A stretch of 49,108 nucleotides of DNA from Planctomycetota bacterium. Its GTDB lineage: Bacteria; Planctomycetota; Planctomycetia; Gemmatales; Gemmataceae. A program made the position numbers and the translations under genes. The stretch covers positions 1 to 49,108 of the forward strand of contig JAKBCS010000021.1 of the NCBI GenBank assembly GCA_021807595.1, in the 5' to 3' direction. Positions 134 through 9,100 of the stretch are shown here, piece after piece; position 1 is the stretch's first letter; every line of letters starts with the position of its first letter. Below the pieces are notes generated by a model that did not search any database, was not told the origin of the DNA, and saw nothing but the letters and a program-made list of their open reading frames with translations.

Positions 134-233
134 GCGCCCACACCCTTCATCGGCTTGACGAACATTGTCTCGCCGCCTTCAACAAAGAGAGGCAGAGACG
201 TTCCCCCTGAAATACCACCAGCGAGGTCTCATC

Positions 234-596
234 GTGGCCGCACCATCCGCCGATCAACTCGAAACTTTCCCCAATCCCCAACTGGGACGCAACTATAGCA
301 TCGAAATCGTCTGTCCCGAATTCACCAGTCTTTGTCCCAAGACCGGACAGCCCGATTTCGGCACCATCACGTTCACCTACACGCCGGGACCGTTGTGCGT
401 CGAATTGAAATCGCTGAAGTTGTATTTGCAGAATTATCGCAATGAGGGGGCGTTTTACGAAACGGTCGTCAATCGTCTGCTCGACGATTTTGTGACGGCG
501 TGCCGACCGCTGCTCTGTTGCGTCGTCGGTGCCTTCACGCCGCGCGGCGGCATAACCACGACTGTGAAGTGCCGATACGAAGTCCAATCTATTTGA
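234..596 (+). CDS. queF: NADPH-dependent 7-cyano-7-deazaguanine reductase QueF
   Basis: A unimodular (short) QueF of about 120 residues. The family reduces preQ0 to preQ1 in queuosine biosynthesis, a tRNA wobble-base modification, in the cytoplasm. The family signature is clear: TSLCPKTGQPDF holds the thioimide-forming cysteine (C34) and, seven residues on, the conserved aspartate (D41). VELKSLKLY, the substrate-binding stretch, follows at about residues 56-64. I chose the GTG at 234 because GCGAGG lies 7-8 bases upstream and the protein then begins just before the conserved LETFPNP. A TTG at 165 would add 23 unconserved residues. The gene ends 8 bp inside the 3' end of the convergent selD. 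It could be transcribed alone, since a strong terminator lies upstream. Identification is secure; only the start is uncertain. Confidence 0.93.
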   Translation: MAAPSADQLETFPNPQLGRNYSIEIVCPEFTSLCPKTGQPDFGTITFTYTPGPLCVELKSLKLYLQNYRNEGAFYETVVNRLLDDFVTACRPLLCCVVGAFTPRGGITTTVKCRYEVQSI

Positions 597-1644
597 CGAT
601 CAGTGCCGCATCTTGTTGGGCCAACACGTCGCCGATGATGCACGAGTAGGTTGCTCCGCGTTTGCGTAGATTCTCCACCAAGGCATCGGCGTTCGCGGAG
701 GGCGTGCTGATGAGCAATCCGCCGGAGGTCTGGGCGTCGTAAAAGAATTCCAGACGAAGCGGATCGACTTTGCCTTCCAAGCGCAGAAACGGTTGCACAT
801 AGGCCGCGTTGGTGGCACTGGCGCGCGTGAAGTACGGCTTGTGGGCCAGCTTTTCCGCGCCCGGCAGCAGCGGTAGCCGAGCCAGTTCGATCGACAGCGT
901 TACTCGACTTCCCCGTGCCATCTCGTAGCTGTGTCCGGCCAAGCCGAAGCCGGTGATGTCGGTGGCGGAGTGCGCTTCGGCCTCCAACATCCCTTCTTTG
1001 CCGATGTCGTTCAGCTGAATCATGCTGGCGCAGGCCGTCTTCAAGACATCGTCCGGACAATCGCCGGCCTTATGAGCGGTCGTGATGAAACCGGTTCCGA
1101 GTGCCTTGGTCAGCACCAGCTTATCGCCGGGACGCGCCGAGGCATTAGAGAGAATACGCTTCGGGTGGACGATGCCCGTGACGGCGTAGCCGAACTTAAT
1201 CTCGCTGTCGCGGACGGTATGGCCGCCGAGAATGACGGCTCCGGCGGTTCGACAACGCTCCTCGCCGCCGCGAATGATGTCGAACAACCAGGTCATCTCC
1301 GGATCTTTATCGTCCGGATAGCCGACGAGATTGAGAGCCGTCTTCGGCGTGCCGCCCATGGCATAAATGTCGCTCAGCGCGTTGGCGGCGGCGATTTGGC
1401 CGTAGATGAAGGCGTCGTTGACCACCGGCGGAAAGAAGTCGATGGTCTGGACGATGGCCAAGTCCTCCGTCAGCCGATAGACACCGGCATCGTCGTGGGT
1501 GTCCGTGCCGACGAGGAGGTTGGGATCGCTGCTGGGGGGGAGGTTGCGCAGAACCTGCGCGATGCCCTGGGGGGGCAGTTTACCCGCTCAGCCGGCGCAT
1601 GAGGCGTAGTCGATCAGACGTTTTTTGCGTCCGAAGAACAACAT
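589..1644 (-). CDS. selD: Selenide, water dikinase (selenophosphate synthetase), selenocysteine-containing
   Basis: SelD makes selenophosphate from selenide and ATP, the selenium donor for Sec-tRNA and 2-selenouridine. The frame is interrupted by one UGA at 1588-1590. Reading through it gives 351 residues, the normal SelD length, starting MLFFGRKKRL at the ATG at 1642-1644 with GGAGG upstream. The residue before the UGA region is C17, and the local sequence is SCAG-U-AGK, so Sec19 aligns with the catalytic Cys/Sec of the family and the K three residues later with the essential lysine (C17 and K20 in E. coli). Further family motifs follow: GTDTHDDAGVYR, TIDFFPPVV, AAANALSDIYAMGG, LGGHTVRD and TDITGFGLAGH. 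A SECIS-like hairpin follows the UGA. A conventional annotation would start at a TTG at 1461 and lose the active site. It is probably co-transcribed with the selW-like gene 47 bp upstream. Confidence 0.96.
1546..1560 (-). promoter_or_regulatory. Bacterial SECIS-like hairpin in selD
   Basis: In the mRNA the sequence GCGCAG-GUU-CUGCGC forms a perfect 6-bp stem with a GUU loop. The stem begins 27 nt and the loop 33 nt after the UGA. From what I know of bacterial SECIS elements (SelB binding, G among the first loop bases, loop roughly 16-37 nt after UGA), geometry and loop both fit. SelB binding itself is inferred. Confidence 0.8.
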
Positions 1645-1691: not shown

Positions 1692-1937
1692 TCACGCTTT
1701 CTTTTTCAGAAGCTCGGCAAGCGTGTCGAGAACCCATTGCTCGTCGGGAAACTGCTTCGTTTTTAGCTTCGAGTACAGCACTTCGCCGTTCGCGGACAAC
1801 TCGAAGCAACCTCCACTGGAGGGAATCAGTCTCAGGTCTTGAATCTTCTGCTTAAACGCGGTCAGTAGTTTGCCCGTCAAACTGAGGGCATGGGGTTCGT
1901 AACTTCACATGGCACAGTAGCGCAACTCCACTTGCAT
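1692..1937 (-). CDS. SelW-like (SelT/SelW/SelH family, Rdx) selenoprotein
   Basis: An 81-residue thioredoxin-like redox protein with an in-frame UGA at 1905-1907. Read as Sec, the N-terminus is MQVELRYCAMUSYEPHA, which carries the family CxxU redox motif (C8, U11) on the first beta strand-loop. The rest has the family hallmarks IPSSGGCFEL, then GEVLYSKLKT and QFPDE, so the frames on both sides of the UGA belong to one protein. The ATG at 1935-1937 has AAAAGGAG seven bases upstream. Without read-through only an ATG-less remnant or a 62-residue product lacking the active site would be annotated. It lies 47 bp upstream of selD on the same strand and is very likely co-transcribed with it. Its exact substrate is unknown. 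The family is generally linked to glutathione or thioredoxin-dependent redox balance. Confidence 0.93.
1872..1889 (-). promoter_or_regulatory. Bacterial SECIS-like hairpin in the selW-like gene
   Basis: In the mRNA GCCCUCA-GUU-UGA(C)GGGC forms a 7-bp stem with one bulged C and a GUU loop. The loop starts 23 nt after the UGA. The loop is the same trinucleotide as in the selD hairpin, which supports recognition of both by one SelB protein. Confidence 0.75.
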
Positions 1938-2064
1938 GTCGATCTCCTTTTCCATGTCCGAAGGCGACTCGCCTCGTGGCGCATTCGCATCTCCTGATAT
2001 AGTAGATGCGGCTGCCCGACTCGTCGAGTTGATGTGCGCAGGGCAGCCCGAGGAAACCAGCCGT

Positions 2065-3057
2065 ATGGGGCGATTGATTCCACCGACGATCATCGTGCGT
2101 CATCCGCGCGAAAATCCGCGGAAATGTTCCGTGCTGCCGCTGCGCGGCCGCGACGAAGTGCGGTTTTGGAGCTATCCCGTGAAGGAACGTCCGCCAATGG
2201 ACGCCTACGTTCGCCTGTCCGCCGATGGTTCGCAACTGTCGGTCGCCGACGCGGACAAGGGGATTCTTCTGCTGGACGGCAGCTGGCGTTGGGCGGCAGC
2301 GATGGCGCGCGATTTTCAGGACGTGCCGCCTCGCTCTCTGCACGGTTGGTCCACCGCCTATCCGCGCGTGTCGAAGCTCGGTACCGATCCCGACAACGGA
2401 CTCGCTTCTATCGAGGCGTTATTCGTGGCCTATCACCTGTTGGGCCGTCCGACGGCGGGGCTGCTCGATTCGTATCGTTGGGCGGAGGAGTTCTTGCGGA
2501 CGAACGGATTATCCGTCGAACCGGTTCGCTTCGCTCCACGGATTGAGCTGCCTCCCTATACGTTCGTGCCGGGGCGGACGCCGCACCCGCTCCGCGATCC
2601 GGCGGGGCATCTCTTCGGCCAAGTGCTGGAACTACCGCCGCCTCTGGACCCATCGCAATGGCGCGACAGCGAAGCGTATCTGCATGGGATCGACCTGTTC
2701 AATCGAGGCTACTATTGGGAAGCCCACGAAGCGTGGGAGGGGCTGTGGCGCGCGGCGGGTCGAACGGGTATCGTCGCCGATTTCCTCAAAGCGCTCATCA
2801 AACTTGCCGCCGCCGGTGTGAAAGTGCGGCAAGGTCAACCGCGCGGGGTTGCCGGCCACGCTGCCGGGGCGTTGGAATTGTTCCGTGCCATCGCCGGACA
2901 ACTCGGCGATGCGCCCGGCTATCTGGGTCTGCACTTGCGCGAACTGCTCGCCTTCGCGGAGCGGATTGAGAAGCAAGCCGAGAACTTGGCTACCGATGAA
3001 GATCGAGGCGTGAAGGTCGTTTTCGCGCACTTTCTCAGTCCCACGGATCGCGCTTGA
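2065..3057 (+). CDS. Tsr3/DTW-like aminocarboxypropyltransferase domain fused to DUF309
   Basis: About 330 residues in two domains. Residues 1-150 resemble the Tsr3 (DUF367)/DTW superfamily, which transfers the 3-amino-3-carboxypropyl group of S-adenosylmethionine to RNA. RHPRENPRKCS near the N-terminus fits the metal/RNA-facing motif, LLLDGSWRWAAAM the SAM-binding segment, and STAYPRVSKLGTDPDN followed by LASIEALFVAYHLLG the late conserved block. Residues about 205-315 are a DUF309 helical domain with the hallmark YLHGIDLFNRGYYWEAHEAW. The start is taken at ATG 2065 just before the conserved region. The longer frame from 1936 would overlap the selW start and carries no recognisable sequence. 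It is transcribed divergently from the Sec operon. Function as a tRNA or rRNA acp-transferase is inferred, and I cannot tell from sequence which of the two subfamilies it belongs to. Confidence 0.75.
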   Translation: MGRLIPPTIIVRHPRENPRKCSVLPLRGRDEVRFWSYPVKERPPMDAYVRLSADGSQLSVADADKGILLLDGSWRWAAAMARDFQDVPPRSLHGWSTAYPRVSKLGTDPDNGLASIEALFVAYHLLGRPTAGLLDSYRWAEEFLRTNGLSVEPVRFAPRIELPPYTFVPGRTPHPLRDPAGHLFGQVLELPPPLDPSQWRDSEAYLHGIDLFNRGYYWEAHEAWEGLWRAAGRTGIVADFLKALIKLAAAGVKVRQGQPRGVAGHAAGALELFRAIAGQLGDAPGYLGLHLRELLAFAERIEKQAENLATDEDRGVKVVFAHFLSPTDRA

Positions 3058-4323: not shown

Positions 4324-6024
4324 ATGAGACATCGATGGATTCGCAGTCTGGCCCTGTCATTAGGCGTTTGGGCGATGGGCCACGCAGGCAATTTGGCGCT
4401 CGTTCGGGGCGCGGAAACCGGACCGAACATTCAACCGTATCCAACGCCGTCACCCGTCGTCGAAGCGGCGCGGGTCGAGGAACCGGCCCCGGCAGCCTTT
4501 TTGAGTCCGCCCATCGCCCCCCCGGATGTACCCACTGAGGAAGATCGCGCGATTCAGCCGGCCGGTTTATTCTCCGGTCGTCTCGGTCGGACCATGCCCA
4601 GTGGATTCGACGATGGCACCGTGATAACGTCGCCCTCGCCGTTGCCCATGCCCAATCCGGCACCGCAACCGGACGTTCCCTACGCCTGGCGGCAGCAGGG
4701 TTCATCCTCCCTCATGGCTTCCAATCCTCCCGCGTCGAACTTCGCGCCCATGCCCAGTCTCGCCTCGCCGCCATCGCCGCAGGCATCCGGCCCGATAACT
4801 AACCCCGGGAGTGTCGCCGCACCTGGAGTCGTCAACGGACCAGTCCACTCGACTTTGCTGGACGGCGTGGGCTGTCTGAACGACGGCAGCTGTGCGCCCG
4901 GCAGTTGCGGCATGGACGGCTGCTGCGGCTGGGGCGACGGGTGCGGCAACGGTTGCAATTTCGGGAATCGCTGGTTTGGCTCCGCCGAGTACCTGCTGTG
5001 GTTCGTCCAAGGACAGAATCTGCCGCCTCTCCTCACGAGCGGCTCCCTCGCCGACAACCCACCCGGAGCCATCGGACAGCCGGGCACCAACGTGCTATTC
5101 GGGGGTAGCAACTACTCCAACAATCCCTATTCCGGCGCGCGGTTGCGCGGCGGCTACTGGTTCAACGACAACCACGGTTTGGGGCTTGAGCTTGGCGGCT
5201 TCTTCCTCGGCGCAGGGGCCAACACCTACACGAACTCCTCGCTCGGCGTGCCGTTCTTGGCTCGCCCGTTCGTCAATGCCTTGACCGGCGGGCAAGACAT
5301 CGAAGCCGTGGCCACGCCCAATGGGTTGACCGGTACCTTCACCGCCGTCAACACGTTTCTCCTCTACGGAGCCGAGGCTAATTTGCGGCGCAATTTGCTG
5401 TGCGGTTGCAATTGGTTCATCGATGGTTTCGCCGGTTGGCGTATGCTCGGTCTGAATGAGTCGCTCGGCATTCGCGAGAACTTGGCGGTCGTTAGTTCGT
5501 CCAACCCGAATCTGCCGACTGGGACGACGTTCATTGTCAACGACCGCTTCGCCACTACCAATATGTTCAATGGTGCCCAAATCGGCGGTATCGGCGAATA
5601 TCGCTTTGGTCGTTGGAGCGTGGATGTGCGCGGCAGCGTGGCCCTGGGCGGCACCGAGCAGTTCGTGGCGATCTCCGGTTCGACGTTCGCCGCCGCTCCC
5701 GGTATCGCCGGTTCGACCGCGCAAGGTGGTTTGTTGGCGCAGTCGTCGAACATCGGCCGCTACACGCGCGGCATGGTGAGCATGGTGGACGAAATCGGCC
5801 TCAATCTCGGCTATCAGTTCACCAACCACATTCGCGGCTTCGTCGGTTACAACTTCTTGTATTGGTCGAGCGTAGTTCGCCCCGGCAATCAGATCGATCC
5901 GGTCGTCAATCCGAACCTGATCCCGCCATCGTCGGGCGGCGGCCCTGCGCGTCCCGCCTTCAACTTCAACGGCACCGATTTCTGGGCGCAAGGTTTGACG
6001 TTCGGACTCGACATTCGTTGGTGA
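4324..6024 (+). CDS. BBP7 family outer-membrane beta-barrel protein
   Basis: A 566-residue secreted protein typical of planctomycetes. The N-terminus MRHRWIRSLALSLGVWAMGH begins a signal peptide ending near RGAE. A Pro/Ser-rich linker follows (residues about 30-175), then a Cys/Gly cluster with GCCGWGDGCGNGC at about 200. The barrel domain starts at WFGSAEYLLWFVQGQNLPP, the BBP7 signature. Alternating aromatic/Gly strands run to the end (GYWFNDNHGLGLELGGFFLG, LNLGYQFTNHIRGFVGYNFL), and the protein closes with a beta strand ending in IRW, as expected for an outer-membrane barrel. Start at ATG 4324 with AGGGAGGA 10 bases upstream. The Cys-rich knob before the barrel could be disulfide-bonded or bind metal. 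It converges on the large cytochrome gene through a shared terminator. Confidence 0.87.
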   Translation: MRHRWIRSLALSLGVWAMGHAGNLALVRGAETGPNIQPYPTPSPVVEAARVEEPAPAAFLSPPIAPPDVPTEEDRAIQPAGLFSGRLGRTMPSGFDDGTVITSPSPLPMPNPAPQPDVPYAWRQQGSSSLMASNPPASNFAPMPSLASPPSPQASGPITNPGSVAAPGVVNGPVHSTLLDGVGCLNDGSCAPGSCGMDGCCGWGDGCGNGCNFGNRWFGSAEYLLWFVQGQNLPPLLTSGSLADNPPGAIGQPGTNVLFGGSNYSNNPYSGARLRGGYWFNDNHGLGLELGGFFLGAGANTYTNSSLGVPFLARPFVNALTGGQDIEAVATPNGLTGTFTAVNTFLLYGAEANLRRNLLCGCNWFIDGFAGWRMLGLNESLGIRENLAVVSSSNPNLPTGTTFIVNDRFATTNMFNGAQIGGIGEYRFGRWSVDVRGSVALGGTEQFVAISGSTFAAAPGIAGSTAQGGLLAQSSNIGRYTRGMVSMVDEIGLNLGYQFTNHIRGFVGYNFLYWSSVVRPGNQIDPVVNPNLIPPSSGGGPARPAFNFNGTDFWAQGLTFGLDIRW

Positions 6025-6070
6025 AAAGAAGAGTAGTTTAAGATTCTTGGGCCTTTTGTTTCTTCAACAA

Positions 6071-6112
6071 GAAGGGATCGCCATCCTCGTAAGCTGGCAT
6101 GGCGATCCCTTC
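6071..6112. terminator. Bidirectional terminator stem
   Basis: A perfect 14-bp inverted repeat (GAAGGGATCGCCAT / ATGGCGATCCCTTC) with a 14-base loop, placed between two convergent genes. T-rich and A-rich flanks lie on the two sides, so it can serve both directions. Confidence 0.8.
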
Positions 6113-6141
6113 TTCCATTTCGATTAACCTCCAAATTCGAT

Positions 6142-9100
6142 CTATTTTGACGCGGAACCGAGAGGCGTCAGCACCTCCAGCTTCAGATCCTTGAAGCGCA
6201 CCTCCATCGGGCCGCCGGCGTGGATTTGTAGGCCGAAGATGCCGCGACGGGCGAGCTTCGCATCGTTCACATCGACGCACAGCTTGCCGTTGAGATACGT
6301 TCGCACCCGGCCGCCCTCGGCCACAATCTCGTACTCGTTCCAATCGTCGGTCTTGACGTGCTTGTCGCCGGACTTGTCCCACAAGATGCCGCGGCCGTTC
6401 TCTTCGTAGAGCTTGCCCCACCAGCCGGCACCGATGTCCGCTTGGGGGCCGCGCATCTCGCCATCGGGCAGCGATGCACTACGGAACTGTATGCCGCTGT
6501 TCTCCTTATTCGGCGTCAGCTTCGCCTTCACGGTCAGACGAAAATCGTCGGCAACCATATGACTGGTGAGGAAGTTATTGCGTTTCAAGCCGGCGCTTTT
6601 GCCGACGATCTCGCCGTTTTCGACCGACCACAATTTGCGGTCGCCGTCCCAGCCGGTCAGATCCTTGCCGTTGAAGAAATCCTTGGCGTTGTCCACCGTC
6701 GCCAACAGCGGCACTTGAGCGGGATGACGCAGATAGGCCACCAGTGCGCGCACGTCGTCGTCGCGCATCTGCTTGAGCAAGTCGTCGGGCATCATCGATG
6801 TAGGGCTGGGGGAACGCTCGTCAATCTCGTTGGCGGGCACGGTCAATGTCTCGTTGGCGGTGACGACGGTGAGAGCGGCGGGCGTCTCGGCGCGGACGAT
6901 GCCGCTGACGACACGGCCACTTTTAAGAGTGAGAACGGTCATTTTGTAATCGTTGGGGATGACGGCGCTGGGATCGAGGACGTTTTCCAGCAGATAATCG
7001 AGGTTGGCCCGATTCGAGCCGGTGATGTCGGGGCCGACCTTGCCGCCGACACCGTACAGCGTGTGGCACTGTTGGCAAGTTTTAGAGAATACAGATCGAC
7101 CGAGCGACAAATCGACTTCCGGAGCGGGAGCGTTCAGCTTCTTCTTCCACGCGGAGATGAGTTGGACGCGCTCGGCGGGCGAAGTGCGGACGATGCCCCA
7201 CACTTGGGCGATACGTTCGTCCAGCGCCTTGTTGCGCAGATTGCGAAGCTGGCGAACGATCTCGGCGGGTACGTCGGATGCCGTCACTTGCTTCGCCGCG
7301 ACGGCTTCCATCAGCGCTTGGCCGTAAGCGGGGCGCGAGGCCAATGTGCTGAGCGCGTCGCGCTTCTCTTGCGGATCGAGGGAAGCGAACGCCTGCAAAA
7401 TCACATGCGGCGTCTTCGCGTCTTCATAGAACGCCAAGCCGCGCAAAGCAATGGCTCGCAGCGGTCTGTCATCCACGAGACGTTGCAAGACGGAGGCCAA
7501 TTCCTTGTCGTGGGCATCGAGGAGAGCGGTCAGGGCGCTCTGCCTTGCCGCAGGCTCCGCAGCGCGATCCTCGGCCACACGGCGCAACTCGGAGAGAGCG
7601 GACGGATCGCCGAACGTCACCGCCAAGGCCATCGAGCGGCGGCGCACTTCCGCATCCGAGCTACGCGACAACTTCACGAAGACGGCAGGCCACCCTTTGG
7701 GTGTGTCCACGCGACGACGGCCTTTCAATGCCTCTTGCACGCTGCTCAGAATCGCTTGCCGTCGTCCGGTTCCGTTTTCGCTGGACAGTAATTTCACTAC
7801 CAGTTCCAACGCTTCCGGAGTGGACGAGGATGCAATGCGTCGGACCGCGAACGGCAGCAGCGACGGCGACGACTTCGCTTCGGATGCCAACTTGAGGGCG
7901 CGCTCCGGCGACGACTCGGCCAACGGCTCCAGAGCGTACCAATACAAAAGGGGCAAATTGGCGTCGCCGACATCCTCTGGATGCGCCAGCAGCCCTTGCA
8001 GAATGTCCCACCGGAGAGCGAGGGGCAATCGTTGCAGGCCCGACGCCAGATACAGACGCACCATCGGCGAGGGGTCGGCGGAAACAAGCTCGGCAAAGCG
8101 TTTCATCAGCGTTTCGGAAGGTTTGCCGTTCTCCGAGGCCAATTGCACCGCCCACGCGCGGACGGAAGGGGATGTGTCCGACAGAGCCTTGAGGAATCGT
8201 TCCTCGGTCAGTCCGCCAATGACGTGTAGCGCCCACAAACCACGCAAACGGCGCGTTTCATCTTTGTTCGTGAAAGCAATCTTCGCCAACCTGTCTGCGA
8301 CATTCGGCAGCGGAGACGCAGCCGGCAGCTTACGCTGCCGGTTCGCCCGTTCTTGCAACAAGCGGCGCGATTGGCGGACGAACCATTCGTTTTTGTGCAA
8401 TTGCAGATCGACTAAGTCGTTATCGCTCCATTGGGACAGATCGACCGTCGCCGGCTTGGTGCCGCGATACTCGATCTTGTAGATGCGCCCGTTCTCGCGG
8501 TCCCAGATTTTGGGATCGCCGTGATGGCAGGCTTGCTTGTCGTACCAATCGAGGAGGTAGACGTTGCCGTCGGGTCCATAGCGGAGGTTGATGAAGCGCG
8601 ACCAGGCGTCGTTGGCGTGTAGGAAATCGGGACCGTGGGAAGCGACGAATCCAGAGCCTTTGGGACGCAAGACATCCATATTCAGGCGATGGCCGTGGAC
8701 GTTGCCCATGAACATGCGTCCGCGATATTCGTCCGGCCACATCCCGCCTTGATAGAGCATCAAGCCACAATGGGCATGCCCGCCGCCGGCGCTGTCGGAA
8801 CTGTTGTTGCCCGCCCACGGATTGGCCCCCTGCCAATGTAAGTGATCGGCGATGGTTGGAATGTCGGCGTAGGTGTGGGGATTAAAATGCGACCCCGCTT
8901 GTCGCTGGTAGCGGCCTCCTTGAATGATGTGGTAGGCATGTGGGATAACGCAGGCCGACACGAACGCTTGCCCATGCGCGTCGAAGTCCAGCCCCCACGG
9001 ATTACTGGTGCCGTGCGCAAACACCTCGAAAACGTGCTTGGTCGGATGATAGCGCCAGACGCCGGCGTTGATGGGGATGCGGTCCCTGTCGGGCGTGCCG

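Follow-up and report, generated by a model that had tools for sequence, protein, structure and literature searches.

A predicted SelW-like selenoprotein encoded next to selD in an uncultured planctomycete

The window (the whole 49,108-nucleotide stretch of DNA analysed) was derived from contig JAKBCS010000021.1 of an uncultured planctomycete of the family Gemmataceae, whose genome assembly (G000) is 95.5% complete in 282 contigs. A selW-like gene and selD were located on the same strand, with selD 47 nt downstream of selW (Table 1). The preliminary description had claimed two UGA-coded genes in one operon; the other was identified as selD, with a UGA and a hairpin of its own. Since the two genes share a strand, are separated by a short gap and, by a hand count, remain adjacent in ∼20 of the 61 family genomes, selW and selD are likely to form one operon. 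Convergent with selD is queF (preQ1 synthase, positions 165-596, plus strand; TIGR03139, 155.7 bits). An ORF divergent from selW (2065-3057, plus strand) carries a C-terminal DUF309 domain; a longer frame of this ORF, from 1936, gave a weak match below cut-off to PRK02287 (DUF367 family model) over residues 53-191. Scanning the window for Rfam families and tRNAs gave no matches.

Table 1. Features of the selW-selD locus, in window positions. Sec assignments are predicted.
Feature	Position	Strand	Details
selW-like gene (Rdx family)	1692..1937	-	81 codons + UGA stop; codon 11 = UGA (predicted Sec), C8-A-M-U11
Predicted Sec UGA codon of selW	1905..1907	-	codon 11; UGA in 94/97 planctomycete SelW genes, UAA/UAG never
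Shine-Dalgarno AGGAG of selW	1944..1948	-	6 nt before ATG at 1935-1937
Putative SECIS hairpin of selW	1871..1890	-	8 bp, one bulged C, G-U-U triloop 22 nt past UGA, -9.3 kcal/mol
selD (selenide, water dikinase)	589..1644	-	predicted Sec-coded itself; TIGR00476 358 bits (cut-off 125)
Predicted Sec UGA codon of selD	1588..1590	-	SECIS hairpin 3' of UGA
Putative SECIS hairpin of selD	1546..1560	-	GCGCAG-GUU-CUGCGC, triloop 33 nt past UGA, -9.5 kcal/mol

The read-through product of selW begins MQVELRYCAMU. Coordinates, strand, UGA position, length and motif all agreed with the fused Rdx-family frame of the preliminary description, and the good ribosome-binding site noted there was confirmed. Profile searches with the read-through protein, which had been proposed as a check, gave scores of 63.1 bits for Pfam Rdx (PF10262; cut-off 22.6) and 56.6 bits for TIGR02174 (cut-off 34.2). 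Both Rdx/SelW profiles match on either side of the UGA, Rdx over residues 2-71. An AlphaFold model (pLDDT 85) has a thioredoxin-like fold with the order strand-helix-strand-strand-strand-helix, and the CxxU motif is predicted to lie between strand 1 and helix 1, as expected of the family. TM scores against the solved SelW-family structures 2FA8, 2OBK and 2P0G were mostly 0.82-0.88. The closest solved structures were SelW-family proteins of Agrobacterium, Pseudomonas and Vibrio, with mouse SelW (2NPB) further off. Within the known SelW family the gene is unremarkable: it matches bacterial SELENOW-like selenoproteins (PF10262, TIGR02174) in fold, length, CxxU motif and UGA with a bacterial SECIS, and differs only in sequence detail and in adjoining a selD that is itself apparently Sec-coded. 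Among the selenoproteins of marine bacteria, the SelW-like proteins belong to the most abundant (PMC1088965, PMC2398784).

SelW matches were obtained in 50 of the 61 genomes of the source's own family. A total of 97 planctomycete SelW genes were read. The family contributed 59, covering its main clade and a second paralogue and including the frameshifted L187; the other 38 came from elsewhere in the phylum. At codon 11, 94 have UGA, two TGC and one GGT, and UAA or UAG never occurs; the terminal codons of the same genes were mixed (TGA 64, TAA 18, TAG 15). On the basis of this comparison with relatives, codon 11 of selW was taken to be a genuine Sec codon. Cysteine occupies the Sec position in two UGA-free relatives (L236 and L237), both from genomes outside the family, so that the UGA falls where homologues have Sec or Cys. 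Conservation downstream of the UGA, on which the preliminary description had made its reading depend, was present: the comparison of this region with congener G057 gave dN 0.148 and dS 0.946. Per-site changes there are mainly synonymous, indicating purifying selection. selW of congener G017 differed from the window gene by dN 0.027 and dS 0.168.

Two variants were recorded in the family. L184 (genome G005) has Gly (GGT) in place of Sec and a weakened hairpin stem, and its genome retains selA and tRNA-Sec. L188-L198 represent the second SelW paralogue (CTSUGYR...), with a UGA and the same type of hairpin, in several family genomes.

The strongest evidence for selenocysteine in selW is provided by the SECIS hairpins, which were absent from the preliminary description. 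The bacterial SECIS model places the loop 16-37 nt from the UGA, with G in the first two loop positions and a free energy of -7.5 kcal/mol or lower (PMC13188914). Both window hairpins, with a triloop of G then U, lie within the limits of this bSECISearch consensus; what sets them apart is a specific G-U-N triloop with A-U, G-U or G-C as its closing pair, seen in both genes and widely in the phylum. Stem pairs of selW covary in the family set: 32 double-change cells were counted, and none of 2000 shuffles (uncorrected for relatedness) gave more than 19. At the hairpin loop, 50 of 54 distinct rows have the Ser codon AGT and the other four GGT (Gly); in the remainder of these genes AGT accounts for just 17 of 264 Ser codons. 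A G-U-N triloop with at least 5 bp was counted in 83% of 94 selW genes, as opposed to 3.8% after synonymous resampling, by a rule that passes over some bulged stems, the window's own selW hairpin among them. Across relatives the selW hairpin is kept by compensatory changes, far above synonymous chance; in ∼9 relatives not belonging to the family the hairpin in use appears to be shifted.

A built-in control for the SECIS is available in selD: a G-U-N hairpin, maintained through compensatory changes, is present in the 24 UGA forms and mostly lost from the genes with a Cys codon at that site (n = 5). The whole window was scanned for a UGA in a long read-through frame followed by a G-U-N-triloop hairpin. 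On the minus strand only the selW and selD sites were returned, with three further candidate sites on the plus strand.

The search for Sec machinery, on which the preliminary description had also made its reading depend, was answered in part. In the source genome selB is intact (649 aa, G000:C81:885-2834) and selD is present, and all three congeners, G017, G044 and G057, have tRNA-Sec (anticodon UCA) and selA as well as selB and selD; selA and tRNA-Sec were not found in the source assembly, and the lack of tRNA-Sec had escaped the preliminary description. The search for tRNA-Sec was made by RNA family, DNA and synteny, the best match scoring 44 bits (cut-off 47); G000:C179 carries the gene that precedes tRNA-Sec in the congener, but no tRNA-Sec was found. 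The contig carrying selB stops ∼4 bases before the selA start position in G017, and selA was most likely lost to this contig end. Because the selA gap meets a contig end, and because 8 of 53 selA-bearing family genomes have no strong tRNA-Sec match either, both absences read as assembly gaps. Most family genomes carry selA, selB and tRNA-Sec. Two nearly complete ones, G010 and G012, gave no strong match to tRNA-Sec, selA or selB, and the SelW match was also absent. G. obscuriglobus and I. pallida, both planctomycetes, are reported to carry complete sets of Sec-insertion genes (PMC4807772). At L153:4793-4888 and 4828-6255 (G017), the tRNA-Sec gene is abutted by an ORF judged by eye to be tyrosine-recombinase-like, as if the tRNA were the integration site of a mobile element.

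The missing genes could also mean that Sec decoding was recently lost and that the UGA genes are relics. This was considered very improbable: the contig carrying selB breaks off just short of the selA position, selB, selD, selW and both hairpins are intact, and the low dN relative to dS between the window selW and that of G017 also argues against it. Decoding of the UGA as another amino acid without selenium, by suppression or UGA=Trp recoding, would equally leave a conserved read-through frame, which by itself says nothing on which residue goes in. However, selW itself terminates at UGA, the inner UGA is followed by a SelB-type hairpin, the aligned residue in L236 and L237 is Cys, and the family's selA, selB and tRNA-Sec, with the UCA anticodon in the congeners, point to Sec, making this alternative very remote. 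The fragmented appearance of selW in a plain ORF list, with a 62-aa frame from TTG after the UGA, would suit a pseudogene, in which a Cys codon had been turned into UGA by nonsense mutation or sequencing error. This reading is given a negligible chance, in view of UGA at the same codon in 94 of 97 relatives, selection downstream and only two Cys forms, both from outside the family; the preliminary description had likewise called chance or sequencing error unlikely.

Against selenocysteine in the window selW itself stand the tRNA-Sec and selA missing from the assembly and a hairpin that needs one bulged C. We nevertheless infer with high confidence, from the comparative sequence evidence, that the gene codes for a SelW-like selenoprotein of the Rdx family, with Sec inserted at codon 11 in the cell. 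On these results selenocysteine is very probably in use in this uncultured planctomycete group, as the preliminary description had claimed for the organism.

SelB with Sec-tRNA would bind the hairpin just 3' of the UGA, and the ribosome would insert selenocysteine at codon 11, with selenophosphate supplied by the neighbouring SelD, itself predicted to be Sec-coded. The small product would have a thioredoxin fold and a redox pair of Cys8 and Sec11, and may cycle through a selenenylsulfide. The function of bacterial SelW-like proteins is called unclear in the literature (PMC1088965, PMC13188914). Family and predicted fold favour a role as thiol/selenol oxidoreductase, and glutathione- or thioredoxin-type partners are tentatively suggested.

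The less ordinary result concerns relatives, all outside the window, in which codons 8 and 11 are both UGA (UxxU). These are L033 (G057), L034 (G044), L173/L243 (G013) and L241 (Bacillota MAG JAJZXK010000134.1). The congeners G044 and G057, together with G013 from another genus, have the motif U-A-M-U or U-S-M-U. Sequencing error at codon 8 is unlikely, because G044 and G057 have diverged (dS 0.5 in selW) yet share the UGA. L241 scored 69.3 bits against Rdx and has the same hairpin, with selA in its genome. G054, a near relative of G013, has C-S-M-U and is identical to G013 downstream of the second UGA. Their loci (L056 and L243) are closely similar apart from one short, strongly differing block that takes in the region upstream of selW and the start of the gene; codon 8 (TGC in G054, TGA in G013) falls within it.

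A fixed-spacing pattern was scanned against a collection of 84,980 species, one genome each, giving a lower bound on UxxU genes. It returned 15 matches, namely G044, G057, G013, L241 and 11 others, which were rejected as chance by translation. Flags for two TGA codons in other phylum members, among those read, were also rejected, the second TGA being the terminal stop.

The codon-8 UGA lies 31 nt from the loop and the codon-11 UGA 22 nt, the two being 9 nt apart. Since 31 nt falls between the selW and selD distances in these genomes, one hairpin could serve both. Bacterial SelW has probably switched between CxxU and UxxU in this genus and elsewhere, with both UGAs read as Sec via a single SECIS to give a diselenide-capable protein. 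Bacterial SELENOW-like proteins are listed in reviews as CxxU only (PMC13188914, PMC9312934), as were 48 of 48 in PMC1088965. UxxU SELENOW has been reported from amphioxus and Ostreococcus (PMC7539508) with the same U-x-x-U as in G044, G057, G013 and L241; these relatives differ in being bacterial, with the hairpin inside the coding sequence, and the window gene itself is CxxU. No earlier report of a bacterial UxxU SelW was found in the literature searched, which takes in few subscription papers, and one may exist.

Plain ORF calling splits genes such as selW and selD. The close CxxU/UxxU pairs among the relatives constitute a natural experiment on the effect of a second selenium atom, and also bear on how a single SECIS recodes two nearby UGAs.
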